Source: Ornithinicoccus hortensis | GTDB lineage: Bacteria > Actinomycetota > Actinomycetes > Actinomycetales > Dermatophilaceae | NCBI RefSeq assembly: GCF_006716185.1 | Contig: NZ_VFOP01000001.1 | Span: 3,844,001-3,908,000, forward strand | Direction of reading: 5' to 3' | Length of the DNA: 64,000 nucleotides | Part shown: one piece after another, positions 1 through 37,497 of the stretch | How positions within the stretch are numbered: position 1 is the stretch's first letter | Layout: each line of letters begins with the position of its first letter | The notes under the pieces: generated by a model | The model's input: the letters and a program-made list of their open reading frames with translations, nothing else | Told to the model about the DNA's origin: nothing | Databases searched by the model: none | Program-made: the position numbers and the translations under genes

Positions 1-366
1 GGCGATGACGAGCCCATGCCGCACCGCGGCGAAGGCCAGGAACCCGACGACGATGAGGATCTCGAGGGCAAAGGTCCCCGGCTGTGTCTGGGTGGCCACG
101 AGCAACGCCTGCAGCAGCACCAACGGGACCCACGCCCACCCCGGTCGGAGCGCCACGACCAGCCACATCAGCACGTCTACCACGCACAGCGTCAGCTCCA
201 GGGCCAGCGGGCCGAAACCATCGGGCCCGGAGTCCAGGACCCGCCATGCGGTGACCGTGTTGCCGACGAGGGCCACCGAGATGATGACGACCCGCAATAC
301 CAACGGCAACTGCCCCCCGGACCAGAATCCGGGGGGCAGGCGAGAACCGTTCTTCAGCAGACCCAC
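1..366 (-). CDS. Membrane protein, N-terminal part only (possible sensor kinase input domain)
   Basis: The open frame runs off the left edge of the window, so only the first 122 codons are visible. I place the start at the GTG at 366-364, because stops lie just upstream in this frame. The visible protein is mostly hydrophobic with about four membrane-spanning stretches separated by short loops. It overlaps the end of the upstream exported-peptide gene by 13 bases, which suggests translational coupling. Because a NarL-type response regulator is encoded divergently at 786, the simplest guess is the membrane sensor part of a histidine kinase. No kinase motif is in view, so this is inference; another small membrane protein is equally possible. 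Confidence 0.6.
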   Translation of the reverse strand, partial: MGLLKNGSRLPPGFWSGGQLPLVLRVVIISVALVGNTVTAWRVLDSGPDGFGPLALELTLCVVDVLMWLVVALRPGWAWVPLVLLQALLVATQTQPGTFALEILIVVGFLAFAAVRHGLVIA

Positions 367-785: not shown

Positions 786-1466
786 ATGGATCCGATCGCC
801 GGGGGCGAACCGCTACGTGTCCTGCTGGTCGATGACCAGAAGCTGATGCTCGAGGCCATGCGGGTCTTCATCGACAACGTCGAGGACTTCACCGTCGTCG
901 GGGAGGCTGCCGACGGGGTCGTGGCAGTGCAGCAGGCACGGGCGCTGCGACCCGACATTGTGCTGATGGACCTGCAGATGCCCCGGATGGATGGTGTCGA
1001 AGCGACCCGCGCCATCCTCGAGGAGAATCCCGACCTGTTGGTCGTCGCGGTGACCACCTTCCACTCCCAGGAGTACGTCATCCCGGCGCTCAAGGCCGGG
1101 GCGAGCGGCTACCTGCTCAAGGACTCGACTCCGGCCGACATCGTTGCCGGGGTCCGGGCGGTGGTCGCCGGAGAGTTCGTGATCTCCTCCCAGGTGACCG
1201 ACGTCCTGGTCCGCAGCGTCCGGGAGGACCAGTCCCCCGCCCCGGCGCAACGCTCCACGCCCGAGGAGCTCGGGTTGAGCGACCGCGAGATGGAGGTCAT
1301 CGAGCTGCTGTGCCAGGGCAGTTCCAACCGGGAGATTGCCCAGCAGATGCACCTGGCGGAGCCGACGGTGAAGTCGCACATCGGCCGGATCATGCAGAAG
1401 CTGGACGTCCGCGACCGCGTCCAGATCGTCATCACCGCCTACCGGTCGGGACTGGCGCAGCTCTGA
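786..1466 (+). CDS. NarL/LuxR-type response regulator
   Basis: The protein has 226 residues in the usual two-domain layout. An N-terminal receiver (about residues 9-128) carries the acidic pair D16-D17, the phosphoacceptor D62 in VLMDLQMP, and the conserved Lys in GYLLKD. A C-terminal GerE/LuxR helix-turn-helix (about 160-225) carries LSDREMEVIELL and EPTVKSHIGRIMQKL. The ATG at 786 is chosen because the receiver begins ten residues later; longer frames add arginine-rich non-homologous sequence. It is followed by a strong terminator and lies about 460 bases upstream of the thiopeptide precursor. It is the best candidate for a cluster-situated regulator, probably working with the sensor that starts at the left edge. 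Confidence 0.93.
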   Translation: MDPIAGGEPLRVLLVDDQKLMLEAMRVFIDNVEDFTVVGEAADGVVAVQQARALRPDIVLMDLQMPRMDGVEATRAILEENPDLLVVAVTTFHSQEYVIPALKAGASGYLLKDSTPADIVAGVRAVVAGEFVISSQVTDVLVRSVREDQSPAPAQRSTPEELGLSDREMEVIELLCQGSSNREIAQQMHLAEPTVKSHIGRIMQKLDVRDRVQIVITAYRSGLAQL

Positions 1467-1930: not shown

Positions 1931-2104
1931 ATGGAGAACAACAGCATCGAGCTGCCGGACCTGGACTTCGACGGGATCGAGGTGATGTCGGTCCGCGAGG
2001 CCGTCGCCGTCCCCGAGACCGGCGCCACCAGCGGCTCGAGTTCCTGCAGCTCGACCTCCTGCTGCGGGTCCAGCTCCTGCTGCTCGTCCGGTTCCTGCGG
2101 CTGA
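1931..2104 (+). CDS. lazA: Lactazole-type thiopeptide precursor peptide
   Basis: The gene encodes 57 residues, with a good GAAGGAGA ribosome site seven bases before the ATG. Residues 1-32 form an acidic leader with LPDLDFD (8-14) and VREAVAVPETGA (21-32). From memory these match the lactazole leader, which has a DLDLS block and ends in ALPENGA. Residues 33-57 are the core and contain only Ser (13), Cys (6, at 39, 44, 45, 50, 51, 56), Gly (4) and Thr (2). After the Gly-Ala leader end, S34 is the likely first dehydroalanine for pyridine formation. The partner could be S49, which sits in SSSC as in lactazole, or S43. Cys residues should become thiazoles and some Ser oxazoles or dehydroalanines. 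The gene is too short to stand out as an ORF, but its place directly before the modification operon supports it. Confidence 0.93.
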   Translation: MENNSIELPDLDFDGIEVMSVREAVAVPETGATSGSSSCSSTSCCGSSSCCSSGSCG

Positions 2105-2122
2105 ACCAGCACATCGGTACCC

Positions 2123-2157
2123 GGGCCGGAGCGCCGCGCTCCGTGGCGCTCCGGCCC
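2123..2157 (+). terminator. Attenuator hairpin between precursor and exporter genes
   Basis: A perfect 13-bp stem (GGGCCGGAGCGCC and its complement) with a nine-base loop lies 18 bases after the precursor stop and is followed by CAAAA. In many RiPP clusters a leaky terminator here makes the precursor transcript more abundant than the enzyme transcripts. That function is inferred from position and structure. Confidence 0.8.
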
Positions 2158-2205
2158 AAAACCGCAACCGAGACCGAGACATCCCCGCTGAGAGGAAAGA
2201 GCACC

Positions 2206-3117
2206 ATGAACACGATCTCTGCCACCGGACTGCTGAAGTCCTACGGCGACCGCGCGGTCCTGCGGGGGGTAGACCTGCAGGTCCCCGAGGGCAGCATCTC
2301 CGCCCTCCTGGGCCCCAACGGGGCCGGCAAGACCTCCCTCGTGGAGATCCTGGAGGGCCACCGCCGCCGCGACGGCGGCTCCCTGCAGGTCCTTGGCCTG
2401 GACCCCGGCTCGCGCGCCGACTTCGGTCAGCTGCGCCGGGTGATGGGCGTGGTCCTGCAACAGACCATGCTGGAGCCCGGCCCGTCCGTGCACGACCTGC
2501 TGCGGCGCCAGGCCTCCTACTACCGCCGGCCCGCGGACGTGGACGAGATGGTCAGCACCCTGGAGCTGACCGACCACGTCTCCGCCTCCGTGCGTTCGCT
2601 CTCCGGCGGTCTGCGCCGCCGGCTCGACATCGCACTCGCCCTCATCGGCCGCCCCCGGATCCTCTTCCTGGACGAGCCGACGACCGGGCTGGACCCGCTC
2701 TCCCGCCGCAACATCCGGGCGCTGATCACCGAGGTCAACACGGCCGGCACCACCGTCGTGCTGACCAGCCACGACCTCGAGGAGGTCCAGCAGCTCGCGG
2801 ACCGGGTGCACGTGCTCTCCGGCGGCAACTTCGTCACCGAGGGGTCCCCGAGCGACCTCATCCACTCCTCCGGCACCGCCACCCGGGTCACCTTCCGGAT
2901 CGGCTCGGCCGACACGGCGCTGTTGCCCGGGGGCGCGGTCCTGGAGGGCGACACCGTCCGCTACGAGGTCACCGACCAGGACGCCCTGCTCGCCCAGCTG
3001 AGCTCCTGGTCCCGCGACCAGGGCGTGCAGCTGGATGGCCTGACCATCTCCCAACCCTCCCTCGACGACGCCTACGCGGCCCTCGTCGGGGCCACCACCA
3101 CCGACGGAGGACGCTGA
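2206..3117 (+). CDS. ABC exporter ATP-binding subunit of thiopeptide cluster
   Basis: This is a 303-residue ABC ATPase of the drug-exporter (DrrA/CcmA-like) type. It shows Walker A GPNGAGKTS, the signature LSGGLRRRLD, Walker B RILFLDEPTTGLD and the switch histidine in LTSHDLEE. The ATG at 2206 follows GAGAGGAAAGAG and begins the typical first strand; the longer frame upstream overlaps the precursor gene and is not real. One base separates its stop from the ATG of the permease gene. Together they most likely export the mature thiopeptide and give the producer resistance to it. Confidence 0.93.
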   Translation: MNTISATGLLKSYGDRAVLRGVDLQVPEGSISALLGPNGAGKTSLVEILEGHRRRDGGSLQVLGLDPGSRADFGQLRRVMGVVLQQTMLEPGPSVHDLLRRQASYYRRPADVDEMVSTLELTDHVSASVRSLSGGLRRRLDIALALIGRPRILFLDEPTTGLDPLSRRNIRALITEVNTAGTTVVLTSHDLEEVQQLADRVHVLSGGNFVTEGSPSDLIHSSGTATRVTFRIGSADTALLPGGAVLEGDTVRYEVTDQDALLAQLSSWSRDQGVQLDGLTISQPSLDDAYAALVGATTTDGGR

Positions 3118-3118
3118 C

Positions 3119-3985
3119 ATGACCACCCTGGCCGACACCCGCGCCCCGAGCGCGACCCAGGAACGCACCCCGCTCTGGCGGCCGTTCCGGATCCACGCCG
3201 AGCTGGACCTCAAGGACTTCTGGCGCTCGCCGATCCAGCTGGCCTTCATCGTGGCGATGCCGGTGATGTTCTACGTCATCTTCGGCTTCGCGATGCGCGA
3301 CGGCGCCGCCGCCGAGGTCACCCACGGCGCGAACACGCTGACCCAGGCGAACCTCAGCTTCGCCGGCGTGCTCGTCTTCGCCCTGCTGTCCGTCGTCCTG
3401 GCCAACGTCGCCATCTCGCTGGCCATCAAGCGGCACCACGGCCTGTTCAAGCGGTTCCGCACCACGCCGGTCTCCCCGGTGTCGGTGATGGGCGGCTTCC
3501 TGGTCAACACGCTGGTCAGCATGTTCATCGTGTTCGGCGCGGTCACCGCGATCGGTGTCCTCGGCCTGGGCGTGCAGCTGCCGACCGACCGGCTGCTCAC
3601 CCTCGGGGCGGTGTCCCTGCTGGGCTTCCTGGCGATCGCCCCGCTCGGGGTCGCGCTGTCCCTCGTCCCGCCGAACGCCGACTCGGCCGTCCCCCTGGTC
3701 AACGCGGTGTTCTTCCCGGTGGCCTTCATGTCCGGGGCGTTCGTGGCCATCCCGTTCCCCGGGCCGGTCCAGCAGGTCATCGACCTGCTGCCGGGCAAGC
3801 CGCTGATGGACCTGTTCACCCCGGCGCTGGCGGGCACCGGCCCGGTCTGGGACTCCGGTGCCGCGCTGGTCCTGGTCGCCTGGGGCATCTTCGGCACGGC
3901 GGCCTCGGTCGCCTTCTTCTCCTGGGCCTCGGAGTCGGAGCCGCGCACCTTCTCCCGCCTGCGGGCCACCGGGGAAGAGTCCTGA
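3119..3985 (+). CDS. ABC-2 type permease of thiopeptide exporter
   Basis: The protein has 288 residues with about six membrane helices and a cytosolic N-terminal segment. This is the usual size and layout of an ABC-2 permease that pairs with a separate ATPase. It begins one base after the ATPase gene, and its TGA overlaps the ATG of the LazB-like gene, so exporter and modification genes form one transcription unit. The substrate is inferred from the cluster. Confidence 0.9.
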   Translation: MTTLADTRAPSATQERTPLWRPFRIHAELDLKDFWRSPIQLAFIVAMPVMFYVIFGFAMRDGAAAEVTHGANTLTQANLSFAGVLVFALLSVVLANVAISLAIKRHHGLFKRFRTTPVSPVSVMGGFLVNTLVSMFIVFGAVTAIGVLGLGVQLPTDRLLTLGAVSLLGFLAIAPLGVALSLVPPNADSAVPLVNAVFFPVAFMSGAFVAIPFPGPVQQVIDLLPGKPLMDLFTPALAGTGPVWDSGAALVLVAWGIFGTAASVAFFSWASESEPRTFSRLRATGEES

Positions 3986-6582
3986 TGAGCACCGTCGCCC
4001 TCCCCCCGGTCCGGTCCGGCCCACGCATCCGGACGGCGGTCACCCCCGACTGGGTGTCCAGGGTCAACCTGCGGCACTACCAGGACCTGGTCGACCCCGA
4101 CCTCGCCGCCACCGACGAGCAGCGGTTCGCCGACCTGGTCGCCGAGGAGGACTTCCGGGCGGAGATCGCCGAGGCCGCGGCCGCCGCGCTCACCGAGCTG
4201 GTCGGCACCGACCGGGAGCGCAGCAGCCGGCTCTGGCTGCCGCTGCGCCGGGCGGTGCTGGCCGGCCGGCACCCCAAGGCCGGGCACCTGTCCGACCCGG
4301 ACGCCGCCGCCGACCCGACGGTGAGCGCCTGGCTGGACAGCTGGCGGCGCACCGACCGGCTCGAGGAGACCCTCGACGGGGAGTATGCCGACGGGCTCGC
4401 CCGGGAGCGCGCCGTCGTCACCGAGTGGACGCGTGACCCGGACGTGCAGCTCAGCACCGTGATGACCAGCCGCTCGTTGTTCCGGGCGGTCGCCTCCCGG
4501 GCCGGCACGGACGGGGCGCTGACCAAGCGGCAGCGCAAGTCCGAGCAGTCGCTGGTCACCTACTTCGGCCGGTCCACCACCAAGGTGAGCCCGTTCTCCC
4601 GCTACACCGGCACCGCCTTCCACGGGCCGGACGAGGCGGCCGGGCCGCTGGGTCGCGACCACGTCAGCGTGGTGGCCCTGCGCCACCTCATCGTGCGCCG
4701 GGCGGCCCGCCGGCTGGCGCAGGACCCGGTCGACCGGCTCGACCTGACCTGGCGGGTGTCGGACACCTGCCGGCTGGACGGGGACGTGCTGGTCATCCAC
4801 CGGCGCCGCTGGGTGGAGGACTCCAGCGCCAAGTCCGACACGGTCAACGAGGACGACCTCCGGCTGCCGCTCAACGGGGCCTGGGCCGAGGTCTGGCCGC
4901 TCGTGGTGGAGACCGCGACCGAGCCGGCCCGGCTGCGCGACCTGATCGAGGTCGTCGCCGACCGGTTCGGCTGGCCGCAGGAGCACACCGCCGCCGTGGT
5001 GGACGTGCTGATCGGCTACCAGGCGATCGTGCCGGCCGTCCCGGTACGTGAGCAGGAGCCGGACTACCTCGGGCAGTGGCTCGCGGTGCTCGCCCCGCTC
5101 CGGGGCGAGACCTCGGCCGCCATCCGCGCCGCCGTGCGGCAGAGCCTGCGCGGCGAGCGGGAGATGGCGACCGCGGGACCGGACGACCGGGCCCGGCTCG
5201 TCGAGGACACCGAGCAGGCCTGGCGGGAGGTCGTCGGCGACGGGGTCGAGCACCCCTTCGTGGAGGACTGCTACCTGGACACGGCCGCGCCGGTCGCGGG
5301 CGACCAGGTGGGCACCTGGGCCGACCAGACCGCCGAGCTCGGCCCGCTGCTGGTGGTGATGGACGACCAGCGCATCCTGGCCGCCGCCCTGGAGAGCGTC
5401 TTCGTGCGCACCTTCGGGTTCGGCGGGACCTGCCGGGACCTGCGCGCCTTCGCCCGGGCCGCCTACGAGACGTTCCCGCTCACCCAGCGGCTGCTGGACG
5501 GGCAGGTCCCCGACGACATCGCGCACATCGTCGGTCCGTTGCGGGCCGCCCGGTCGATCATCGCCGACCACCTCGTCGAGCTGGGCCGCAGCGGCACCAG
5601 CCCGGTCTTCCTGGACCCGGCGGTGCTGGACCGCGCCGCCGAGCACGTCCCGGACCGCGAGTGGGACCGGCCCCGGTCGATCACCGTCTTCGGCCAGCCG
5701 GCCGGCCCGGAGTTCGTGGTCAACCACCTCTACGGCGGTCGGTCGCGCTACTTCAGCCGGTTCCTGGCCCAACAGCCCGGGGAGACGCTCGCCCGGGTGC
5801 GGGAGACGGCGCGGGTCACCGGCCCGGACGACGCGCGCCAGGTGCACATGCGCCCCGCCCTCGGGTTCAACGCCAACCTCAACCCGCTCCTGGCGCCGGA
5901 GGAGCTGCGGCTGACCGACGAACACCCCGGGGAGACCGCCCGGCTGTCCGTGGAGGACCTCGCGCTGGTGCACGACCCGGCCACCGGGGTGCGGATCGTG
6001 CTGGCGGCGACCGGGGAGTCGGTCGACGTGCTCTACACCGGGTTCCTGGTCCCGCACGCGCTCCCGTCCGAGGAGATGCTGCTGGCGATGGTGGCCGGCG
6101 CGCCGTACTTCTCGTTCAACGAGCTGACCCTGGACCTGCACGCCAGGCTCCAGGCGACCCGCGAGGACTGCGTGCGGGCCCCCCGCATCCAGCACGGCGA
6201 CCTGGTCCTGTTCCGCTCCCGGTGGGCGCTGCGCTCCTCCTTCCTGGCCGCCGAGGTCGGGGTGGATGAGCCGGTGCGGCACCGCGAGCTGGGCCGGGCC
6301 AGGGCCCGCGTGGGGCTGCCCGCCCAGGTCTTCGCCCGGCCGCTGTTCGGCCGGCAGATCACCCCGCTCGAACGGGCGATGAGCCCCCGGCCGCAGTTCC
6401 TGGACCTGGGCTCCCGCCTGCAGACCGCCGGCGCGCAGAAGCGCACCGCCCCGCTCGGGGACAACCTCCTCGTCGAGGAGTTCCACCCCCGTCCCGACCA
6501 GCACGGCACGCGGTCCCCCCGCGGCCGGCACGCCACCGAACTGTTCTACGAGATCACGCTCGCACCAGGAGGACACCGATGA
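3985..6582 (+). CDS. lazB: LazB-like LanB N domain (Glu-tRNA-dependent Ser/Thr glutamylation)
   Basis: The protein has 865 residues and matches the large N-terminal (lantibiotic dehydratase N) part of split LanB enzymes, as in thiopeptide and goadsporin clusters. These enzymes transfer glutamate from Glu-tRNA to Ser/Thr side chains of the precursor; a separate protein then eliminates glutamate to give dehydro-amino acids. Recognisable stretches include SPFSRYTGTAF near residue 203 and RYFSRFLAQQPGET near residue 590. The protein stops at the length where LanB C domains would begin, and the two following LanB-C-type proteins supply that part. It overlaps both neighbours by a few bases. The function is inferred from family and context. 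Confidence 0.9.
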   Translation: MSTVALPPVRSGPRIRTAVTPDWVSRVNLRHYQDLVDPDLAATDEQRFADLVAEEDFRAEIAEAAAAALTELVGTDRERSSRLWLPLRRAVLAGRHPKAGHLSDPDAAADPTVSAWLDSWRRTDRLEETLDGEYADGLARERAVVTEWTRDPDVQLSTVMTSRSLFRAVASRAGTDGALTKRQRKSEQSLVTYFGRSTTKVSPFSRYTGTAFHGPDEAAGPLGRDHVSVVALRHLIVRRAARRLAQDPVDRLDLTWRVSDTCRLDGDVLVIHRRRWVEDSSAKSDTVNEDDLRLPLNGAWAEVWPLVVETATEPARLRDLIEVVADRFGWPQEHTAAVVDVLIGYQAIVPAVPVREQEPDYLGQWLAVLAPLRGETSAAIRAAVRQSLRGEREMATAGPDDRARLVEDTEQAWREVVGDGVEHPFVEDCYLDTAAPVAGDQVGTWADQTAELGPLLVVMDDQRILAAALESVFVRTFGFGGTCRDLRAFARAAYETFPLTQRLLDGQVPDDIAHIVGPLRAARSIIADHLVELGRSGTSPVFLDPAVLDRAAEHVPDREWDRPRSITVFGQPAGPEFVVNHLYGGRSRYFSRFLAQQPGETLARVRETARVTGPDDARQVHMRPALGFNANLNPLLAPEELRLTDEHPGETARLSVEDLALVHDPATGVRIVLAATGESVDVLYTGFLVPHALPSEEMLLAMVAGAPYFSFNELTLDLHARLQATREDCVRAPRIQHGDLVLFRSRWALRSSFLAAEVGVDEPVRHRELGRARARVGLPAQVFARPLFGRQITPLERAMSPRPQFLDLGSRLQTAGAQKRTAPLGDNLLVEEFHPRPDQHGTRSPRGRHATELFYEITLAPGGHR

Positions 6583-7766
6583 GCACCACCGACCCGACCG
6601 TCATCCGCGGTCTCCGCATCAACTACTACGCCGAGGACAAGCGCCGTCTCATCCACGACTGCCTCGTCCCCCTGGCCAAGGAGGCGCACGACGCGCCCGG
6701 CATCGCCTCGGCCTGGCTCCAGTCGAACTGGCGCTTCGGCCCGCACACCATGCTCTACCTGCACGGCGCCCCGGCGGCCGTCGACGCGCTGCTGCCGCAG
6801 CTGCAGGCCCGCGCCGAGGCCCACCTGGCGACCGACCGGTCCACCCGGGTGATCACCGACGAGGAGTGGGAGCGCACGTCATACGACCTCGGTCGTCTCG
6901 AGCTGGTCTCCCCGCCCTACCTGCCGCTGGAGCCCGACAACACGGTGTCCGTCCAGGACGGCGGTCCCTCCGACACCTTCCTGCGCACCGAGCGCGCACT
7001 GCACGCCAAGGGCCGGACCATCGGCTCGGGGCTGGACTGCCTGCACGACGCCTCCGGGCGGCTGTTCGACGGGCCGGACGCCACCAACGCGGTGTTCCGC
7101 GGGATGGCCGCGCTGGCGGTGAACTACCCCCGGTGGGGCCTCATCTCCGGCTACCAGGCCTTCCTGTCGCACTGGAAGGAGTACTTCTACTGGACCGACA
7201 CCGACGGCCGGCTGAGCCGCCCGCTGGAGCGGTCGTGGGCCGCCCAGCGCGACGGTCTGGTGGCCGTGGTGCAGCGGGCCAAGCAGCGCCAACCGGGCGA
7301 GTCCACCGGCGACCCGGTCCTGGACCGCTGGATCGCCTGGGTCGAGGAGCGGATGCCGGACGCCCTGGCGTTGGCCGCGACCGAGGACATCCTGCCCTAC
7401 CCGCACCCGTCCCGGCTGGAGAAGGCCGAGACCTTCGGCCCAGACCTGGCCGTGCAGTGGTCCGGTTCCGACGAGCGGGACTACAGCGACTTCCACGCCG
7501 CGTTCCGCCAGCTGGACTTCACCAAGCTCGGCAACGGCACGGACTTCGCCGCCTACCGGTTCCTGATCAACAGCTTCTTCGAGCTGCTCCCCCTCGTCGG
7601 GGTCACCCCGATGCAGCGCTACTCGCTGGCCTACCTGTTCACCGAGGCCGCCCAGGACGTGGTCGGCGAGCGTTGGGACACCACGATCGCCCGCACCGTC
7701 GAGCGGCAGCGGGCCGCCGAGCCGGAGCTGCGGCCGACCCTTCCCTGGGCAGGTTCCCATGTCTGA
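6579..7766 (+). CDS. lazC: LazC-like pyridine synthase ([4+2] cycloaddition, macrocyclisation)
   Basis: The protein has 395 residues and belongs to the stand-alone LanB-C-like (thiopeptide-type bacteriocin biosynthesis) group. In thiopeptide clusters this group includes pyridine synthases such as LazC and TbtD. Those enzymes join two dehydroalanines, form the central pyridine and release the leader. The conserved-looking C-terminal region around residues 325-370 contains FLINSFFELLPLVGVTP and RYSLAYLFTEAAQDVVG. Its position directly after lazB and before lazD matches the lactazole order. The fused LanB-C domain in the LazF-like protein is expected to do glutamate elimination, which leaves this copy for the cycloaddition. 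Swapped roles cannot be excluded from sequence alone. Confidence 0.85.
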   Translation: MSTTDPTVIRGLRINYYAEDKRRLIHDCLVPLAKEAHDAPGIASAWLQSNWRFGPHTMLYLHGAPAAVDALLPQLQARAEAHLATDRSTRVITDEEWERTSYDLGRLELVSPPYLPLEPDNTVSVQDGGPSDTFLRTERALHAKGRTIGSGLDCLHDASGRLFDGPDATNAVFRGMAALAVNYPRWGLISGYQAFLSHWKEYFYWTDTDGRLSRPLERSWAAQRDGLVAVVQRAKQRQPGESTGDPVLDRWIAWVEERMPDALALAATEDILPYPHPSRLEKAETFGPDLAVQWSGSDERDYSDFHAAFRQLDFTKLGNGTDFAAYRFLINSFFELLPLVGVTPMQRYSLAYLFTEAAQDVVGERWDTTIARTVERQRAAEPELRPTLPWAGSHV

Positions 7767-9432
7767 GCAGACCCTCTCCCCACCCCGCCGGCTGCGCCGG
7801 TCGGTGAGCGCCCGGACCCTGGAGGGCCGCGGCATCGCGGTCAGCGCCGGCCGCACCGCCGTGGTGCTGGACGGTGCGGCGGCGGAGCAGCTGTGGGCCG
7901 CGATCGAGCCGGTGCTGCGGGCCGGGGTGGCCGTGCCGGACCTGCTGGACCGGCTGCCCGCCGCGGCCCGGCCGGCCGCCGGCGGCCTGCTGGACCAGCT
8001 GGAGGAGCACGCCCTGCTCTGTGCCGCCACCGCACCGGCGGAGGGCCCCCTCGGGGAGCACTTCGAGCGCACCGCCGACGACCCGGCCGCGGCGAGCGCC
8101 GCCGCGGCCCGGACGGCCGTCGAGGTGGGCGGTGACGACGCGGGACTGGTCGCCGAGATCCTGGAGGCCTTCGCCGGGACCGGGCTCCGGGTGCGGGCCT
8201 CCCGCACCCCCGCCGTCCCGCTCCCGGGCGCACCGGGGGCCACGGTCACCACGTACGCCCCCGGGGCGGAGCCCGGCGACGGGGACGCGGGCCGCAGCGT
8301 GCTCGTCCTGCGGGCCGGCGACTGGCGCCTGGTCGGGCCGGCCCCGGACTCCCGGGGAGCACGGGAAGCGCTGCGCAGCTGGGCGACCCGGGCCCGGGCC
8401 CTCGCGGGACCGGCCAACGCGGCCAGGGACGGGATCGCCGACCGGCTCGCCGGGGCCCAGGCGGTGCTGGACACCCTGACCACGCTGTCCGCCGACCGAC
8501 CTGGGGCACCGGCCGCGACCCCGGCCCGCTACCACCTCACCTCCCCGGACGTGGTCTCGGAGGTGCACCCCCTGGTGGCGCTGCCGGACCTGGCCCCGGG
8601 CGGTGAGTTGCTGGCGCCGGAGGTCCTCATCGGTCACGGTGCCGGCGGGGCCGGCACGGACGGTGATTTCCTGGAGCAGACCGAGCAGCTCTGGCTGGGC
8701 CCGCTCAGCCCGTGGTCCGGTCCGGTCCCCGACGACCTGCCGCAGCTGCCGGTCGGCCTGGCGGTCGCCGGCACGGCCGGGCACCCGGTGGCCGAGGCCG
8801 GCGTGGACACGGCGGACGCCCGGGCGGCCTGCGTGGAACGGCTCGCCGAGCTGGCCGCCGCAGCCAGCGCCGCAGCCTCCGACTCCGCCACCGGCCCGTC
8901 GGGCGTGATCGGGGTCGGGCGGGACCCGTCGCACGCGGTGGCCCGCGCGGTCAGCCACTGGGCCCACGCGCACCTGACCTGGGCCGACCCGGACGAAGGC
9001 CGGCCCGAGACACTGCCCGGCTCGCCGTTCGCGCGCCGGCTGTGGACCGCGCTGACGATCCGCGAAGGGGTGGTCGCGAGCACCCGGACCCGCACGGCCA
9101 CGGTCGAGGGGGCCCCGGACCTCGTGCTCGTCGAGGTGCTCGACGCCGCGGGCGGCGTGCTCGGCTCGGGCCTGGCGACCACCGCGGCCGCCGCCCTGGA
9201 CGAAGCACTGGTGCCGGCCGTCGGCTCCGCGCTGGCGCAGGGTGACCCGCGGACCACGGTCGAGTCGGCGCCGCGCCCCCGGTTGGAGCCGACCCGCCTG
9301 GCGCTGGCCGCCTGGGCCGCGGCCGCGCACGTCGAGGTGCGCCGCCCCGGCGGGGCAGCGGGGTGGGAACGCCTCGGGCTCCACCCGCGGACCGTGACCG
9401 CACGGACGTCCGGATCGGGGACGACGTCATGA
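7759..9432 (+). CDS. lazD: LazD-like leader-binding partner of the cyclodehydratase
   Basis: The protein has 557 residues, is rich in Ala, Gly and Arg, and begins inside the end of lazC. Residues of about 10-90 have the size and pattern of a RiPP recognition element (winged-helix leader-binding fold). The rest resembles the degenerate E1/ThiF-like partner proteins of azole-forming YcaO enzymes (LazD, TbtF, Ocin-ThiF type). It has no clear catalytic motif of its own, which fits a role of presenting the precursor leader to the YcaO protein encoded next. Family assignment is mainly by position and overall character. Confidence 0.75.
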   Translation: MSEQTLSPPRRLRRSVSARTLEGRGIAVSAGRTAVVLDGAAAEQLWAAIEPVLRAGVAVPDLLDRLPAAARPAAGGLLDQLEEHALLCAATAPAEGPLGEHFERTADDPAAASAAAARTAVEVGGDDAGLVAEILEAFAGTGLRVRASRTPAVPLPGAPGATVTTYAPGAEPGDGDAGRSVLVLRAGDWRLVGPAPDSRGAREALRSWATRARALAGPANAARDGIADRLAGAQAVLDTLTTLSADRPGAPAATPARYHLTSPDVVSEVHPLVALPDLAPGGELLAPEVLIGHGAGGAGTDGDFLEQTEQLWLGPLSPWSGPVPDDLPQLPVGLAVAGTAGHPVAEAGVDTADARAACVERLAELAAAASAAASDSATGPSGVIGVGRDPSHAVARAVSHWAHAHLTWADPDEGRPETLPGSPFARRLWTALTIREGVVASTRTRTATVEGAPDLVLVEVLDAAGGVLGSGLATTAAAALDEALVPAVGSALAQGDPRTTVESAPRPRLEPTRLALAAWAAAAHVEVRRPGGAAGWERLGLHPRTVTARTSGSGTTS

Positions 9433-11252
9433 CGACCCTGACGATCGCGCCACCCGCCCCCGCGCGGGACAACGCACCCGACCCGTATGCCGAGGTCGTC
9501 GACCGGCTGGTCCGGGACGGGGTCGCGCGGGCCGACGGCACGGCATACCGGCTGGAGCTGCGGGCCGACGCCGACGAGCTGCTGCTCGGCACCGCCCCCA
9601 CGGGCGGGGTCCGGGGCTGCCTGGACTGCGCCCGGCTGTGGCGCCGCGACACCAGCTCCCTGCTCCCCTCGACCGGGGCCAGGACCTGGCTGGTCAGCGC
9701 GCCGTGGGCCCGGACCGTCGCCGCGGCCGTGGCCGACCACCTCTCCAGCGGCTCCCCCGCCGCCCCGGGACGGGTGCGGGTCGTCAACCGCAGCGACGGG
9801 ACCGTCGAGGACCACGGCTACCTGGACCACCCGGACTGCGGCAGCTGCGCCCCGGTCCCGTCCCGGACCGCGGCCACCCCGCTCGACCTGACCACCCCCC
9901 AACCGGCGACGGCGGGGACCCTGCGGGTCCGCCCGGTCGAGACGGCCGCCTGGACGGCCGCGGTGACCGACCGGCGGCACGGACCGCTGGCGCTGTCCTA
10001 CCGCGACGAGTTCTCCCCGCTCGCGCTGGTCACCTCCGAGTTCGTCGCGCCGGGGCACCGGCTGCGGGAGAGCGGCTATGGGCGGTCGACGACCTTCCCC
10101 GGCTCCACCGGGCCGGCGCTGCTGGAGGGGATCGAGCGGGTGCTCGGCGCCCGCCGTCCCGCCGCCGTCGACACGGTGCGGGCCAGCGCCCGGGAGCTCG
10201 GCACGGACGCGGTGGACCTGACCACCCTCGGCCTGCACGACCCCGCGCTGATCGCCCGCGCGCACGGCTTCACGCCGTGGACGCCGGAGCTGGAGACCTC
10301 CTGGGTCGCGGCCAGCTCCGCGCTCCGGGCCGGACCGGTGCTGGTGCCCGAGCAGATGGCCTACTGGCGGGTCCCCGCCGGCCAGCAGCGGTTCGTCTAC
10401 GAGTCGTCCAACGGCTGCGCGGTCGGCGGCTCCCTGGAGGAGGCCGCGTTGCACGGCTACTACGAGGTGGTGGAGCGGGACGCCTTCCTGCTCACCTGGT
10501 ACTCCCGCACCCGGCTGCCCCGCATCGCCGGCGCGGGCGAGGACCCGCAGGTGGGCCACCTGCTGGACACGCTGCGCTGGCACGGCCTTACCGTCGACCT
10601 GCTCGACATGACCAGCGACCACGGCGTCCCCACCGCCCTCGCGGTGATCACCGCGCCGGACGAGGTCGCCGAGCAGGACCTGTTCCCCTCGCTCAGCCTG
10701 GCCTCGGCCACCCACCCCGACGGGCGGCAGGCGATCCGCACCGCGCTGGAGGAGGTCGCCACCAACGTGCTGATGTACCAGCGGTGGAAGCAGCTGCGCC
10801 CGTCAGTGTCGGCGCAGCGCTGCCGCCCGATGCTGGAGGACCACGACCTGGTCGAGTTCCTGGAGGACCACACCGGCCTGCACGGCCTGGTCGGCGCCCG
10901 GCCGCTCAACGAGTTCCTTCGGCACCCCGCCGGCAGCACCGACATCGACACCTTCTGCGACGTCCCCGTCTCCACCGACGTCGCGCACCAGCTGGGCCGG
11001 CACCTGGACCGGCTCGCCGAACTGGGCGGCGACCTGATCGTCGTCGACCAGACCGACCCGACGTTCGCCGGGGCGGTCCCCGTCCACGCCGCGAAGGTCC
11101 TCGTCCCCGGGAGCGTGCCGATGACCTTCGGCCACCTGCACCGGCGACTGCACGGGCTGCCCCGGCTCCACCGCGCCTCGGCGCTTCTGAAAGGAGGTGT
11201 GCCGTGGTCGACACCCGGACAGATCGTCCCCGCACCACACCCGTTCCCGTGA
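9429..11252 (+). CDS. lazE: LazE-like YcaO cyclodehydratase
   Basis: The protein has 607 residues. An N-terminal part (about 1-200) carries two CxxC pairs (GCLDC and CGSC), as in zinc-binding cyclodehydratase partner domains. A YcaO domain (about 220-607) contains ESSNGCAVGGSLEEAALHG and YEVVERDAFLL, the ATP-binding signature. The C terminus is PAPHPFP, matching the PxPxP tail typical of azoline-forming YcaO enzymes. It activates amide bonds with ATP so that Cys (and Ser) become thiazolines and oxazolines. The ATG at 9429 lies four bases before the stop of lazD. The 3' end overlaps the next gene by 49 bases, and an AAGGAGGT site for that gene lies inside this one. Confidence 0.93.
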   Translation: MTTLTIAPPAPARDNAPDPYAEVVDRLVRDGVARADGTAYRLELRADADELLLGTAPTGGVRGCLDCARLWRRDTSSLLPSTGARTWLVSAPWARTVAAAVADHLSSGSPAAPGRVRVVNRSDGTVEDHGYLDHPDCGSCAPVPSRTAATPLDLTTPQPATAGTLRVRPVETAAWTAAVTDRRHGPLALSYRDEFSPLALVTSEFVAPGHRLRESGYGRSTTFPGSTGPALLEGIERVLGARRPAAVDTVRASARELGTDAVDLTTLGLHDPALIARAHGFTPWTPELETSWVAASSALRAGPVLVPEQMAYWRVPAGQQRFVYESSNGCAVGGSLEEAALHGYYEVVERDAFLLTWYSRTRLPRIAGAGEDPQVGHLLDTLRWHGLTVDLLDMTSDHGVPTALAVITAPDEVAEQDLFPSLSLASATHPDGRQAIRTALEEVATNVLMYQRWKQLRPSVSAQRCRPMLEDHDLVEFLEDHTGLHGLVGARPLNEFLRHPAGSTDIDTFCDVPVSTDVAHQLGRHLDRLAELGGDLIVVDQTDPTFAGAVPVHAAKVLVPGSVPMTFGHLHRRLHGLPRLHRASALLKGGVPWSTPGQIVPAPHPFP

Positions 11253-12511
11253 CCACCGGCACCCGGCAGTTCTGGGAGCAGTCCTTCGGCAAGGCGGTCG
11301 GCGAGACCACCACCCTGTTCGGCACCCTGCCGGTGCCGCACGCCCCGGAGGAGGACCTCGGCACGGTCGACCCGGACCTGCGCCGGGCCATCGGGTCCGC
11401 CGCCCCCGGGACCCCCGTCGCCCGCCCCGCCGACCCGTGGGCCGCGCTGGAGGCCGCCGCCTCGGCCGCCGTCACCGTGCGCCGCGCGGTCGCCGCGGAC
11501 CGGTACGTGCTGCACCGCGCCTACCCCTCGCCCCGCGCCCTCTTCGGCGTGGACCTCGAGCGGGTCGACGCGGCGGGCCGCCGCGAGGTGCTGCTGCCGT
11601 GGAGCGGGGCCACCGCCCCCGCGGACCGGCGCCGCTCCCCCGACCACGCGGGCACCCCGGACCGCCGCGGGCTGGTCGCCCGGATCCGCCCGGACCGCTA
11701 CCCCACGCCGTATGCCGGGTTGCGCCCCTCCCTGGCCCGGCTGGAGGCCGGCCACCTGCTCGCCACCGTCGCGGCGGCCGCGCACCACCTCGGGGTCGAC
11801 CCGGCCACCGTGCTGCACGCGCACGGCGACGAGGTCGCCCGCCTCACCCAGCGACCGGACCCGACCGGTCCCGGGTGGACCATCGCCCCCGACGTGATCG
11901 GGTCGCTGGTCCGGGCCAGCAGCGACGGACCGGACGGACCGCCGCCCACCGTGGACGCCTGGTTCGCCCGGCGCACCAGCGGCCCCTCGACCGCGAACCT
12001 GATCACCTCCCGCGAGGTCCCGGACCCGGCCCGGCAGCGGATCGACGCCGTGGTCGCCGCGGGACTGGCCGCCGTCGCGCCGTTGTACGCCGCGGGCGCG
12101 CTCACCGTGCACCGCACCACCCTCGTGGGCCGGGGCATGTCGGAGCGCTACCTGACCCCGCTGCGCCCGGACGGCGCGGGACCGGAGCGCCCGATGGCCT
12201 CGACCGGGGCCTGGGCCTCCGCCGCCGGGTTGACCTGGTCGGTCGACCCGCGCCGGCTGGCCGCGGTGATGGGACCGGGCGCCCTGGAGTCGGTGCACGT
12301 GCTGCTCGGCTGGCTGGCCCAGTGGGTCTGCCTGTCCGCCGCGGCCTGCGGCATCGCGGCGCGACCGGCCCGCAACTTCGACGAACCCACCTGGGCCCAC
12401 GACCTCGGCCTCGACGCCGGGGCCGTCCCCGCCTACCAGGTGTGGCTGCGCCCCCTAGCGGACAACGACCTGACACCGGCCGCCTGGACGACCTACGGGA
12501 GGAACACATGA
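11204..12511 (+). CDS. Second azoline-dehydrogenase-like protein (McbC/SagB/nitroreductase fold)
   Basis: The protein has 435 residues starting at a GTG preceded at ideal spacing by AAGGAGGT. Stretches such as AYPSPRALFGVDLERV and LEAGHLLATVAAAAHHLG resemble the FMN-dependent dehydrogenases that oxidise azolines to azoles, but the usual RRS FMN-phosphate motif is not obvious. A clear SagB-type dehydrogenase is already fused in the next gene, so this copy is extra compared with the lactazole set. It may be a second dehydrogenase with different site preference, or a degenerate partner subunit that forms a heterodimer with LazF. It is fully embedded in the operon, overlapping the genes on both sides. 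Confidence 0.7.
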   Translation: MVDTRTDRPRTTPVPVTTGTRQFWEQSFGKAVGETTTLFGTLPVPHAPEEDLGTVDPDLRRAIGSAAPGTPVARPADPWAALEAAASAAVTVRRAVAADRYVLHRAYPSPRALFGVDLERVDAAGRREVLLPWSGATAPADRRRSPDHAGTPDRRGLVARIRPDRYPTPYAGLRPSLARLEAGHLLATVAAAAHHLGVDPATVLHAHGDEVARLTQRPDPTGPGWTIAPDVIGSLVRASSDGPDGPPPTVDAWFARRTSGPSTANLITSREVPDPARQRIDAVVAAGLAAVAPLYAAGALTVHRTTLVGRGMSERYLTPLRPDGAGPERPMASTGAWASAAGLTWSVDPRRLAAVMGPGALESVHVLLGWLAQWVCLSAAACGIAARPARNFDEPTWAHDLGLDAGAVPAYQVWLRPLADNDLTPAAWTTYGRNT

Positions 12512-14286
12512 CCACCACGACGCCCCGGCCCCCGGACACCCGGGAGCACCCCACGACGGGCGGCGCCCCACCGGCCACCGACCCGCCGTGGACGACCACC
12601 TGCATCTACGCCCACCTCACCACCCCGGGCACCGACGCGCTGATCCGCGACTGCGTGGCGCCGCTGGCCCAGGAGCTGGTCGCGCAGGGCCGGGCCACCG
12701 GTTGGTTCTTCCTGCGCTACTGGCACGGCGGGCCGCACGTCCGGGTCCGCTTCCGGGACCCCGACCCGGCGGCGGTGGACGGCTTCGAGGCCGCCGTCGC
12801 GGCCTGGTTGGCCGACCACGCCGAGGACCGGGTGGACCTGGACCCGGGCCGGTTCCACGCCCGGTTCAGCCAGCCCGACCCGGTGCCGTGGCACGGGCAC
12901 GGGCAGATCGTGCGGGAGCCCTACCTGCCCGAGGTGGACCGCTACGGCGGCCCGCGGGCGCTGGCCAGGTGCGAGGAGTTCTTCGAGCTGAGCAGCCGGA
13001 TCGCCGGGGCGGTGCTGCGCACCGGCGACCGGACCAAGGTCTTCGCCGTCGGCCTGGACCTGATGACGCTGGCGATGGGTGCCGCCTCGCCCGCCGCCCT
13101 CGACGCCGCACGGTCAGCCCGCCGCTACTTCTCCTCCTGGGACTTCGTGGACGAGGCCTCCTCGGACCGCGACGGCGCCCTGCAGCAGGCCGAGGGGTTG
13201 CGCCGCGACTGGTCGCAGGTGTGGGACAAGCGGGTCGCCGCCGTCACGGCCGCGGTGCAGGACTCCCCCGGCTCCACGCACGGCCTGTGGCGCCGCGGCA
13301 TCGAGGACCTGCTCGCCGACCTGGACCGGATCAGCGCGCAGGACGGGCTGACCCGTCCCCCCGCCGCCATCCTCTGGTCGTTGATCCACATGATGAACAA
13401 CCGGCTCGGGATCTCGGTCCACGAGGAGCGGGTGCTCAGCTGGCTCGCCTCGGCGATGACGCTGGGGTGGACCTCCGTGGCGGACTACTTCGAGGACACC
13501 CCGCACGCGCTCGACCGGGCCTACCTCGAGGGCAGCAAGTATGCGGTGCGCACCCACGCGGCCGCCCAGTGGCCGCGCCCGCCCTCGGGCGAGGCCGGGC
13601 ACGAGCGGCCCGGGGGTTTCCCCACCGTCCCGCTGCCCGCACCGGCCCCGCTGCGGCACCGCCTGGACGAGGTCCTCGAGGACCGCCGCAGCTCCTACGG
13701 CGACTACGGCGGCACCCTGGACCTCCCGGTGCTGGCGACCGTGCTCGGGTGGGCGGCCGGCGAGGTGGAGAGCCGCGCCGTGCAGTGGGGCGACACCAGG
13801 ATCGTGCCGCGCACCCACCCCAGCCCCGGGGGGCGCTACGCCACCTCGGTGCTGGTCAACGCCTGGGCGGTCACCGGGATCGACCCGGGGCTGTATGCCT
13901 ACGCCGCCCCCGGGCACTCCCTGGTCCGGCTCGGCCCCGCGCTGACCCGGGACACCGTCCAGCACGCGTCGCCGACCTTCGGCAGCGGGCAGGACCGCGC
14001 CGCCAACGGACCACCGGTGGTGCTCACCGACACCGTCCCGGCCGTGCTGCTGCTGGCCTCCGACATCACCTCGCTCCGGCCCAAGTACGGCCTGCGGGCG
14101 CTGCGGCTGCTGCTGCAGGAGTGCGGCCACCTGGCCCAGAACCTGCTGCTGTGCGCCACGGCCGCGGGCTGCCGGTCCATCCCGGTGTCGGCCTTCTCCG
14201 ACGACGAGCTGAGCACCGCCGTGCACCTGGACGGCATCGACGGCTTCGTCTCGGCGCTCCTCCCGCTCGGTCCCGCACCGGACTGA
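12508..14286 (+). CDS. lazF: LazF-like eliminase / azoline dehydrogenase fusion
   Basis: The protein has 592 residues and two domains. Residues of about 30-340 are a LanB-C (thiopeptide-type) domain with FFLRYWHGGPHVRVRFRDP near the start and LIHMMNNRLGISVHEE near residue 292, expected to eliminate glutamate from glutamylated Ser. Residues of about 385-592 are a SagB-type FMN dehydrogenase with DRRSSYGDY, YAYAAPGHSLV and LLLQECGHLAQNLLL. This same fusion is the hallmark of LazF in the lactazole pathway. The ATG overlaps the preceding stop. It supplies dehydroalanines for the pyridine synthase and oxidises azolines. Confidence 0.9.
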   Translation: MTTTTPRPPDTREHPTTGGAPPATDPPWTTTCIYAHLTTPGTDALIRDCVAPLAQELVAQGRATGWFFLRYWHGGPHVRVRFRDPDPAAVDGFEAAVAAWLADHAEDRVDLDPGRFHARFSQPDPVPWHGHGQIVREPYLPEVDRYGGPRALARCEEFFELSSRIAGAVLRTGDRTKVFAVGLDLMTLAMGAASPAALDAARSARRYFSSWDFVDEASSDRDGALQQAEGLRRDWSQVWDKRVAAVTAAVQDSPGSTHGLWRRGIEDLLADLDRISAQDGLTRPPAAILWSLIHMMNNRLGISVHEERVLSWLASAMTLGWTSVADYFEDTPHALDRAYLEGSKYAVRTHAAAQWPRPPSGEAGHERPGGFPTVPLPAPAPLRHRLDEVLEDRRSSYGDYGGTLDLPVLATVLGWAAGEVESRAVQWGDTRIVPRTHPSPGGRYATSVLVNAWAVTGIDPGLYAYAAPGHSLVRLGPALTRDTVQHASPTFGSGQDRAANGPPVVLTDTVPAVLLLASDITSLRPKYGLRALRLLLQECGHLAQNLLLCATAAGCRSIPVSAFSDDELSTAVHLDGIDGFVSALLPLGPAPD

Positions 14287-14402
14287 GCACCACGAACCCC
14301 GACCGGGAGGACCGCGACCCGGTCGGGCGGAGTCCGCTCCGTCACCCCCGCGGCCCCGAGCGACCGGACCAGCCGGCGCTCACCACCGAAAGGAACACGC
14401 TC

Positions 14403-14597
14403 ATGGCACACACCCAGTCCAAGGAATGGTCCACCTCCTACGAGATCGCCGCCCTCACCGGCGCCGGCTGCGCGGTGCTCGGCCTCGGGGCCGGCATGGT
14501 CGCCAAGCAGCCCGGGATCGGCGCGGTCCTCGGGGCCGGCGTCGGCCTGATGGTCCGGGCCGCCGCCGTCGCGGTCGGGGCGCGCAGCGGTCGATGA
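14403..14597 (+). CDS. Small glycine-rich membrane peptide of thiopeptide operon
   Basis: This is a 64-residue protein with an AAAGGAAC ribosome site. Residues 17-58 are almost wholly hydrophobic and Gly/Ala-rich and can form two short helices around a KQPG turn; the C terminus is basic. It follows lazF after a 116-base gap, and its TGA overlaps the ATG of the amidohydrolase gene. No family is recognised. Candidates are an immunity peptide or a membrane anchor for the export complex; both are guesses from size and place. Confidence 0.6.
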   Translation: MAHTQSKEWSTSYEIAALTGAGCAVLGLGAGMVAKQPGIGAVLGAGVGLMVRAAAVAVGARSGR

Positions 14598-15877
14598 GTC
14601 CGGTGACGAGGACCCCCGGCGCCGGTCCGTCCGCGACCACCACGGTGGACGCGGACGGGCCGGGGCTGCCCCCGGCCGGGGTCCTCACCGGGTGGTACCG
14701 GGACCTGCACCACTGGCCGGAACTGTCCGGGCTCGAACAGCGCACCGCCGCCGTGCTGGCCGACCGGCTCGGCACCTGGGGCTGGCAGGTGCACCGGCAG
14801 GTCGGCGGGGAGGGCGTGGTCGCCCTGCTGGACGCCGGGCCGGGCCCGACCGTGGTGCTGCGGGCCGAGCTCGACGGGCTCCCGGTCCGCGAGCAGACGG
14901 ACCTGCCGTTCCGCTCCGTCCGCGAGCAGCGGCTCGGTGAGCACACCGTCCCGGTGTCGCACGCCTGCGGCCACGACGTCCACCTGGTCGCAGCCTGCGG
15001 CGCGGCCGCCGCCCTGGCGGCCAGCCGGTCGCGGTGGGGCGGGCGGGTCGCCGTCGTCCTGCAGCCCGCCGAGGAGACCGGGTCGGGAGCCCGCGCCATG
15101 CTCGCCGACGGGCTGCGCGACCTGGTGGGGCCCGCGGACCACCTGCTGGCACTGCATACCAGCGCGCTGCCCACCGGGCAGGTGACCTTCCGTCCGGGGC
15201 AGATGACCTCCGCCGGGCTCGACGTCTCGCTGACCTTCCTCGGCGAGGGCGGGCACGCCGCCTGGTCCACCTCCGCGCCGACGCCGGTGCAGCGGGCCGC
15301 CGAGTGGGTGCACCGGGTCAGCGGCCGGCTCGGCGGCGAGGGCTCCGTGCTGACCGTCGGGTCGATGACGGCCGGCAGCTGCGCCAACGTGGTGGCCGAC
15401 CGGGCCGAGCTGCGGCTCAGCCTCCGGGCGGACACGGCCGCTGCCTGCCAGGACCTGCTGCGCGAGGTGCGGCGCTCCGTGCACGGCGCGGCCCAGCCGG
15501 CCGGGGGCCGCAGCGAGGTCGCCATCCGGGCCGTCTACGAGCCGGCCGTGAACGACGACGGGACGAGCGGTCCCGTCTACCAGGCGCTGCGCACCGCCCG
15601 GGTGCCGACCTACCTGTTGCCCGCACCCTCCCGTGCCTGCGACGACGTGGGCACCCTCGCGGACGGGTTGGGCGCCGGGCTGGCCTACTGGTTCGTCGGC
15701 GCCAACGACGCCGCCCTGTTCTCCGCGGCCGACCTGGACCTCGTCCGGGCCGGGGAGCAGCCGCGCGGGGTCCCCGGCAACCACTCACCCCGGTTCGCGC
15801 CCGACCCGGCGGTGCTGCCCGAGGCCGCCCGCCAACTGCTCCTGGCGGCCCGCGGCTGCCTGGCCGCCCCCGGCTGA
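14594..15877 (+). CDS. M20-family amidohydrolase / peptidase in thiopeptide cluster
   Basis: The protein has 427 residues and belongs to the HipO-like M20D amidohydrolases. It shows RAELDGLPV (metal Asp region), HACGHDVHL (metal ligands), LQPAEETGSGA (catalytic and metal Glu) and a late HSPRF near residue 397. The first 30 residues are poorly conserved. The ATG at 14594 overlaps the preceding stop, so it is co-transcribed with the RiPP genes. Such enzymes cleave N-acyl amides or C-terminal amides. Here it could trim the product's tail, remove a residue left after leader release, or detoxify a by-product. Its role in the pathway is inferred from position only. Confidence 0.85.
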   Translation: MSPVTRTPGAGPSATTTVDADGPGLPPAGVLTGWYRDLHHWPELSGLEQRTAAVLADRLGTWGWQVHRQVGGEGVVALLDAGPGPTVVLRAELDGLPVREQTDLPFRSVREQRLGEHTVPVSHACGHDVHLVAACGAAAALAASRSRWGGRVAVVLQPAEETGSGARAMLADGLRDLVGPADHLLALHTSALPTGQVTFRPGQMTSAGLDVSLTFLGEGGHAAWSTSAPTPVQRAAEWVHRVSGRLGGEGSVLTVGSMTAGSCANVVADRAELRLSLRADTAAACQDLLREVRRSVHGAAQPAGGRSEVAIRAVYEPAVNDDGTSGPVYQALRTARVPTYLLPAPSRACDDVGTLADGLGAGLAYWFVGANDAALFSAADLDLVRAGEQPRGVPGNHSPRFAPDPAVLPEAARQLLLAARGCLAAPG

Positions 15878-16666: not shown

Positions 16667-16871
16667 CAGACTGTATGCCGTGCAGCTGCCGGTCTGACGG
16701 CATACCAGAACGGCACCCGTGCGAGGTCACAGATTGGTCACAACCGTAGACATCCCGGGCCAGGAGGGAAAGACTGCCTCCGTCTCCCGGTTCGGCTTCG
16801 CCCCAATCTTTTCCGTGGGTCCGTGCTGCCCCGGGCACAATCACACCGGATTCAACGAAAGAAGATCACCA

Positions 16872-37397: not shown

Positions 37398-37400
37398 GTC

Positions 37401-37497
37401 GGTCGACTTCCTCCACCGGTACGAACCGGATCAGGTTCAAGGGTCTGCGGCGTCCTGTTCTCGCCGCACTCTCAGCGCTGACGCGCTCCCCTGTCGT
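37401..37497 (-). promoter_or_regulatory. TPP riboswitch (THI element)
   Basis: On the minus strand the conserved TPP aptamer blocks appear in order: ACAGGGGAGC, GCTGAGAGTGCGGC, CGCAGACCCTTGAACCTGAT, CCGGTTCGTACCGGTGGAGG and a closing GAAGTCG that pairs with the 5' CGAC. The start codon of the permease follows four bases after the aptamer. The Shine-Dalgarno is part of the 3' side, so TPP binding should block translation initiation. The family is well known, and the mechanism here is inferred from the overlap. Confidence 0.95.

Follow-up and report, generated by a model that had tools for sequence, protein, structure and literature searches.

A putative lactazole-type thiopeptide gene cluster with a nearly invariant core peptide in Ornithinicoccus hortensis

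Gene content of the locus

The analyzed window is a stretch of 64,000 nucleotides from the genome of Ornithinicoccus hortensis (NZ_VFOP01000001.1, positions 3,844,001 to 3,908,000), which consists of one contig of 3.94 Mb. Between positions 1931 and 15877 the window contains a cluster of tightly packed genes, all located on the plus strand, with a divergently oriented sensor kinase and response regulator upstream. The genes are listed below with the evidence for each label; G134 denotes the genome of a second species of the same genus.

1–366, minus strand: sensor histidine kinase, truncated at the window start (label from sequence reading; a 53% identical homologue adjoins the G134 cluster)
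786–1466, plus strand: LuxR-type response regulator, divergent from the kinase (PF00072, PF00196; a 73% identical homologue adjoins the G134 cluster)
1931–2104, plus strand: precursor peptide, 57 aa (NF033400, TIGR03892, PF19409)
2206–3117, plus strand: DrrA-like ABC transporter ATPase (PF00005)
3119–3985, plus strand: ABC-2 permease (PF01061)
3985–6582, plus strand: LanB N-terminal (tRNA-Glu-dependent glutamylation) protein, LazB/TbtB-like (PF04738, 92 bits, cut-off 28)
6579–7766, plus strand: pyridine synthase ([4+2] macrocyclase), LazC/TbtD-like (NF045556 below cut-off; TbtD and PbtD in the PDB)
7759–9432, plus strand: predicted leader-binding partner (LazD/TbtF role) with an RRE at residues 5–91, an E1-like middle part and a degenerate YcaO-fold end
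9429–11252, plus strand: YcaO cyclodehydratase (LazE role) with a proline-rich C-terminus, PAPHPFP (TIGR03604, 237.9 bits, cut-off 219; PF02624)
11204–12511, plus strand: second dehydrogenase-like protein, a fused pair of nitroreductase-like halves (profile and predicted fold)
12508–14286, plus strand: LazF-like fusion of a LanB-C glutamate eliminase and a SagB azoline dehydrogenase (TIGR03891, PF14028 and PF00881 above cut-off; alignment)
14403–14597, plus strand: small hydrophobic, glycine-rich peptide, 64 aa (hydropathy; homologues in the same place in G134, 70%, and in two Curtobacterium loci, 42–49%)
14594–15877, plus strand: M20 amidohydrolase (TIGR01891, 191 bits, cut-off 154; G134, 56%, and two Curtobacterium loci, 34–35%)

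The start of the M20 gene was set at 14594 (not 14426) and that of the YcaO gene at 9429. The complete sensor kinase gene was found as an open reading frame in the upstream stretch (L094, 7149–8366, minus strand, 405 aa). The precursor is of the thiopeptide type, with scores above cut-off for both NF033400 (E = 9.4e-19, 67.1 bits, cut-off 30) and PF19409 (54.2 bits, cut-off 23.5). The proteins encoded at 7759–9432 and 11204–12511 and the small peptide had no meaningful match among the Pfam and NCBIfam families. We take PAPHPFP at the YcaO C-terminus to be the proline-rich motif typical of such cyclodehydratases, and HACGHD and PAEE, picked out by eye in the M20 protein, are presumably its metal-ligand motifs.

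The original prediction had proposed a lactazole-type gene order, and family searches, predicted folds and synteny located the named genes in that order. The ABC exporter, second dehydrogenase, small peptide and M20 amidohydrolase, which had been named as additions to the lactazole set, were likewise all found in the cluster.

Evidence for the biosynthetic enzymes

The precursor and four of the six modification proteins matched known families, the pyridine synthase among them with a score below cut-off; the other two, the partner and the second dehydrogenase-like protein, were assigned by predicted fold. The pyridine synthase scored 127 bits against NF045556 (E = 7.9e-37), under the equivalog cut-off of 325. 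Compared alone with PDB sequences, it matched TbtD (E = 1.8e-10) and PbtD (E = 0.0027), and a six-sequence profile of pyridine synthases matched TbtD with E = 3.2e-25. On the basis of the TbtD match we regard it as a thiopeptide pyridine synthase despite the NF045556 score; for the original prediction, a missing pyridine synthase would have spoken against a thiopeptide. The catalytic residue of TbtD is given as Tyr319 (PMC12018205); one candidate for its counterpart lies in a YR motif, where the proteins of the window, G134, Arthrobacter and Curtobacterium keep the Tyr and most Nocardiopsis proteins have Phe.

A leader-binding partner and a YcaO protein are both encoded: residues 5–91 of the predicted model of the partner align with the RRE of PbtF, and the YcaO protein, which scored above the TIGR03604 cut-off, is the only PF02624 match in the genome. 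A split LanB dehydratase and an azoline dehydrogenase are present as well, with PF04738, PF14028 and PF00881 above cut-off and TIGR03605 below it; for the SagB half of the fusion, the scores were 28.9 bits for PF00881 (cut-off 23.5) and 63.9 bits for TIGR03605 (cut-off 78.4). Azoline dehydrogenases, as we assume, carry a K-Y motif, which occurs as PKYG in the SagB half of the window protein. In the alignment, G134 shares PKYG with the window, and the Curtobacterium proteins have VKYG. All ten aligned Nocardiopsis rows have EGYG, QGYG, AGYG or TGYG, in which the Lys is gone and the Tyr is retained.

The second dehydrogenase-like protein is nitroreductase-like by profile and predicted fold. It does not conserve the K-Y pair of SagB, and 101 of the 435 residues of its model have a pLDDT below 50. 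Searches of PDB sequences with LanB-N, the second dehydrogenase and the partner gave no useful match. A family scan of the partner alignment found no family common to its members, and scans of the 19-member alignments returned TIGR03605 in two of 19 members (best E 0.18) and PF00881 in four of 19 (best E 0.016). Alignments A4–A7 contained 22, 19, 14 and 13 rows, respectively, including that of the window, and represent part of the loci.

Distribution and extent of the cluster

All 11 cluster genes were found in the same order in G134, where ten of them share 43–70% identity with the window genes and the best stretch of the precursor 93%. Of the 186 genomes of the family, six had pyridine synthase matches with E ≤ 1e-10; besides the O. 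hortensis genome itself only G134 had a close match (64%), and identity in the other four was 25–30%. Six of the 31 genomes of the genus had YcaO matches, which were close in two only (the own genome and G134). Matching genomes numbered 2 of 396 in the order sample and 16 of 394 in the class sample, both of which contain the O. hortensis genome.

A scan of named genomes yielded 22 further loci, labelled Nocardiopsis (18, including Nocardiopsis alba DSM 43377 and N. sinuspersici DSM 45277), Curtobacterium (2), Glycomyces fuscus (1) and uncultured Arthrobacter (1). The coordinates of the Glycomyces fuscus-labelled locus coincide with those of a match in G910, a genome placed in the Nocardiopsis genus. 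Within that genus, 20 of 40 genomes had a pyridine synthase match with E ≤ 1e-60. The backbone of the cluster recurs in the 22 named loci as far as their contigs reach, and this recurrence, together with that in G134, indicates that the arrangement reflects more than chance. As these loci were found through the pyridine synthase, its presence in 22 of 22 adds no independent support. The ABC ATPase and the permease were each present in 21 of 22 named loci, the locus lacking the ATPase being just 3.4 kb long. The second dehydrogenase-like gene was present in all 19 named loci that reach it. Both Curtobacterium loci contain the small peptide and M20 genes, which were absent from the 17 other named loci extending past the fusion gene; L036, L042 and L052 stop short of the fusion gene and did not enter the gene-presence counts there. 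All matches to LanB-N, pyridine synthase, YcaO, second dehydrogenase and fusion protein were shortened in L053 (Nocardiopsis eucommiae HDS5), where the pyridine synthase frame continues into the partner frame; this cluster is perhaps decayed or misassembled.

Upstream of the precursor gene, the divergent pair of sensor kinase (53%) and LuxR regulator (73%) is also kept in G134. Weaker matches to the kinase (27–30%) and regulator (44%) were found upstream of L037 and L043, and no homologues of either were found upstream of the other 20 named loci, so that the link to the regulator is firm within the genus only. The response regulator at 786–1466 is likely the regulator of the thiopeptide cluster. 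The gene content predicted for 1931–15877 was thus recovered, while the unit probably extends beyond it upstream to the two-component system.

No counterparts of the window genes that follow M20 were found next to the G134 cluster. The downstream CAAX-protease-like and S8-protease-like genes, both labelled from sequence reading, were rejected as cluster members, as they had no match within about 8 kb past the G134 cluster. The latter is a long open reading frame just 3' of the cluster (16719–20768) that, from reading its sequence, resembles a secreted S8-type (subtilisin-like) protease. Farther downstream, a TPP riboswitch was detected on the minus strand (37391–37502) with a score barely above the gathering threshold.

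A nearly invariant core peptide

The window precursor consists of a leader (residues 1–32) and a core of 25 residues, TSGSSSCSSTSCCGSSSCCSSGSCG (residues 33–57). As had been noted from the sequence, the leader ends in GA (..VPETGA), like that of lactazole. We counted 38 precursor copies in 22 loci, namely the window, G134 and 20 of the 22 named loci, with a pattern that required TS[GA]SSSC after the leader; L049 and L052, which lie at contig ends, had no precursor copy, and a looser precursor pattern applied to the same loci revealed no other core. Two precursor genes were present in 15 of the 19 Nocardiopsis-type loci. In one Curtobacterium locus, a second precursor with nearly the same core, carrying Ala at position 21, lies past the M20 gene (L055, 18653–18922).

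The core was nearly invariant over all copies, with the consensus TSGSSSC[ST]STSCCGSSSCCS[SGA]GSCG. Only four of the 25 positions varied: 3 (one Ala), 8 (Thr in 36 copies, Ser in 2), 10 (one Pro) and 21 (Ser in 22, Gly in 14, Ala in 2). The codons did vary, with serine codons switching between the TCN and AGY sets. In a comparison of eight representatives, 2–21 of the 75 bases of the core DNA differed with zero or one amino-acid change, and 10–18 bases differed between the window and other genera. The enzymes of the named loci share about 30–60% identity with those of the window, and the path from the window to the nearest Nocardiopsis row in the YcaO tree amounts to approximately 1.76 changes per column. 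In contrast, the lactazole-cored L097 and L098 are about 0.5 apart in this tree and have clearly different cores. Because the core has remained constant while its codons vary and the enzymes diverge, we infer purifying selection on the product rather than recent spread. This pattern points to one conserved target or receptor.

The letters of core and leader occurred in none of the open-literature papers searched, and the listings and opening lines of abstracts on related thiopeptides did not mention this core. The cluster may be among the 508 thiopeptide clusters surveyed earlier. A new thiopeptide had been predicted as the product; the complete lactazole-type cluster is in line with this, but the core is not unique to the O. 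hortensis genome.

Relation to lactazole and other thiopeptides

Lactazole-like clusters are common in surveys and made up 251 of 508 thiopeptide clusters; in 2020 lactazole was described as the only characterised lactazole-like thiopeptide and its function as unknown (both as given in PMC7210931). The window shares with the laz cluster of Streptomyces lactacystinaeus the order of LanB-N, pyridine synthase, RRE partner, YcaO and eliminase-dehydrogenase fusion (roles as given in PMC7210931), the leader ending in GA and the SSSC 4-pi motif. It differs in the additional nitroreductase-fold protein, ABC pair, two-component system, M20 amidohydrolase and small peptide. The lazB-lazC-lazD-lazE-lazF order with a bifunctional LazF was judged against two lactazole-cored loci, L097 and L098, which both contain lanBN-pyr-ycao-fusion and of which L097 alone had a partner between pyr and ycao. 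Neither a second dehydrogenase nor an ABC homologue was found in the 20-kb stretches of these loci. Their pyridine synthases, used as stand-ins for the laz genes themselves, share 26% (L097) and 29% (L098) identity with that of the window.

The likeness to lactazole holds for gene order and enzymes and fails for the composition and start of the core. Lactazole is noted for a low Cys/Ser/Thr content (PMC7210931) and starts with Ser1, whereas 21 of the 25 residues of the window core are Cys, Ser or Thr and all 38 copies begin with Thr1, so that the position right after the leader offers no Ser for the 2-pi role. Counted from residue 1, the 4-pi Ser is residue 17 in the window core and residue 12 in lactazole. 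The low Cys/Ser/Thr content and the 32-membered ring from residue 1 that mark the lactazole compound are therefore not features of this core.

In a midpoint-rooted YcaO tree with 31 rows, which include the over-long L099 (1670 aa), the 21 rows with the nearly invariant core formed a clade (support 100/99). Together with the lactazole-cored rows (L035 twice, L097, L098) they fell into a group of 26 rows (100/100), which stands apart from five rows of another thiopeptide type; a three-way fork with the long-branched L009 inside the 26-row group is not settled. The window and G134 joined Curtobacterium at 97/93, possibly by a long-branch effect according to a warning of the tool. Within 20 kb, locus L035 of the class-mate G840 combines two pyridine synthases and two YcaO stretches with four thiopeptide precursor matches, whose cores differ.

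The Nocardiopsis, Curtobacterium and Arthrobacter clusters (L036–L057) have the same gene order as the window and nearly the same core, the Arthrobacter locus stopping inside the partner gene; they differ in the second precursor gene of most Nocardiopsis-type loci and in the distribution of the M20 and small peptide genes described above. In the other thiopeptide type (L010–L012, L100), a homologue of the second dehydrogenase immediately precedes LanB-C, as in the window. These loci differ in having LanB-C outside such a fusion and another gene order, and L010–L012 have a separate SagB on the opposite strand. A weak match to the second dehydrogenase-like protein was present in L099, and the genome of L100 encodes a precursor with the core SSGSGILCCSSSSSSSSSCC. 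The thiomuracin and GE2270 systems share with the window pyridine synthase homology (TbtD, PbtD) and the RRE fold (PbtF). We know of no lactazole-type fusion protein in these systems. Their rings have 29 members (PMC7136475).

Given the tree grouping and the second dehydrogenase in the other type, the cluster is, by these sequence comparisons, lactazole-type with one extra gene common to another thiopeptide type. The second dehydrogenase, predicted as a difference from lactazole, is indeed an additional gene, and to this can be added that another thiopeptide type has it as well.

Proposed pathway and ring size

We propose, with a probability of about 0.88, that the cluster encodes all steps of a lactazole-type thiopeptide pathway, which as a kind is known but has new features here. 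The partner would hold the leader, and the YcaO protein would convert core Cys and some Ser residues to azolines. Their oxidation to azoles would fall to the SagB half of the fusion, possibly helped by the second nitroreductase-fold protein. Dehydroalanines would arise in two steps, tRNA-Glu-dependent glutamylation of Ser by LanB-N and elimination of the glutamate by the LanB-C half. The pyridine synthase would then couple an N-terminal dehydroamino acid to Dha17 of GSSSC, form the pyridine and free the leader as an amide, closing a ring from T1 or S2 (44–47 members) or S6 (32 members) to S17. The ABC pair would serve product export or immunity and the two-component system would regulate the cluster. 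The M20 protein and small peptide would be a branch-specific addition, for which C-terminal trimming is a guess. New here are the almost fixed core, a possibly unusual ring and the extra nitroreductase-fold protein.

In lactazole the ring joins Ser1 and Ser12, and Ser10, Ser11 and Ser12 are required; known thiopeptide rings have 26–35 members, and the lactazole enzymes make rings of up to 62 members in vitro (all as given in PMC7210931). Lactazole-like precursors of the class sample keep GSSSC, whose distance from Ser1, counted to the final Ser, is 12 residues (L072), 13 (L070 and L071) or 17 (L064). As GSSSC occupies residues 14–18 of the window core, S17 is likely the 4-pi residue. Computed rings to S17 have 47 members from T1, 44 from S2, 38 from S4, 35 from S5 and 32 from S6. 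For an unmodified leader that retains the initiator Met, the calculated monoisotopic masses of the amide set free are 3445.64 Da (T1), 3546.69 Da (S2), 3690.74 Da (S4), 3777.77 Da (S5) and 3864.80 Da (S6). With T1 in place of the essential Ser1 of lactazole, the start of the ring is not settled. The closeness of T1 and S2 to the leader favours a ring of 44 (S2–S17) or 47 members (T1–S17), above the 26–35 range (PMC7210931), and we put forward such a large ring tentatively, at somewhat less than even odds. If T1 were the 2-pi residue, the pyridine would bear a methyl group from dehydrobutyrine.

Among the alternatives, a ring of lactazole size (32 members) that runs from S6 to S17 and leaves TSGSS in the released leader is only slightly less probable than the large ring. 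S6-C7 and S17-C18 are 12 residues apart, which is exactly the spacing of lactazole and favours S6 as the start; S6-C7 would also place a thiazole after the 2-pi residue, the common thiopeptide context, and TSGSS could be counted as conserved leader. The unmodified residue 2 of lactazole is called unusual among thiopeptides (PMC7210931). However, the lactazole 2-pi Ser comes straight after ..GA, the window keeps ETGA followed by T1-S2, and in L098 (SGGVSSCSCGSSSC) S1 alone yields a ring of at least 26 members. Far less probable is a classical antibiotic thiopeptide whose ring has 26 or 29 members and whose target is the ribosomal GTPase centre or EF-Tu. PMC7136475 describes binding to these two sites as the main modes of action of thiopeptides, and the exporter pair would agree with such a product. 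Rings of these sizes do not fit S17 as the 4-pi residue and were rejected on that premise, since a 26-membered ring would start at residue 8, which is Thr in all but two of the 38 copies, and a 29-membered one at residue 7, a Cys in all 38. Moreover, the core lacks Asn, which according to PMC7136475 characterises EF-Tu binders, and the genome has no TSNR_N methylase match and one EF-Tu gene above cut-off. A linear azole/dehydroalanine peptide without a pyridine ring is the most improbable of these products. Goadsporin has a YcaO protein, a split LanB and a dehydrogenase in common with the cluster, and the core is unusually rich in Cys and Ser, but the precursor belongs to a thiopeptide family and the intact pyridine synthase gene led us to reject this product: goadsporin and coryneazolisin clusters, as presented in PMC4603692, have no [4+2] protein. 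For the thiopeptide pathway, the ring is thus probably either 32-membered or 44- to 47-membered, as predicted from the core, and a 2-pi residue other than T1, S2 or S6 would hold the rest of the odds.

Function and significance

A search of the genome for self-resistance through a TSNR-type methylase or a second EF-Tu gave no TSNR_N match and a single EF-Tu gene above cut-off, so that no target-modification self-protection was seen. The ABC pair is likely the immunity or export system. It is possible, though we hold it with less than even confidence, that the fixed core reflects a role as a signal or developmental factor and not as a weapon: the core is near-invariant across genera and a two-component system adjoins the cluster, yet the cluster was found in 2 of the 31 genomes of its own genus and in 20 of 40 Nocardiopsis genomes, and this patchiness would fit a competition molecule as well, as would the exporter pair.

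About half of the predicted thiopeptides are lactazole-like (PMC7210931), and the clade with the nearly invariant core offers a handle on their function. That the core has hardly changed while the enzymes diverged deeply implies a specific target. If the large-ring reading is true, this target has held the core close to constant in several families of actinomycetes.
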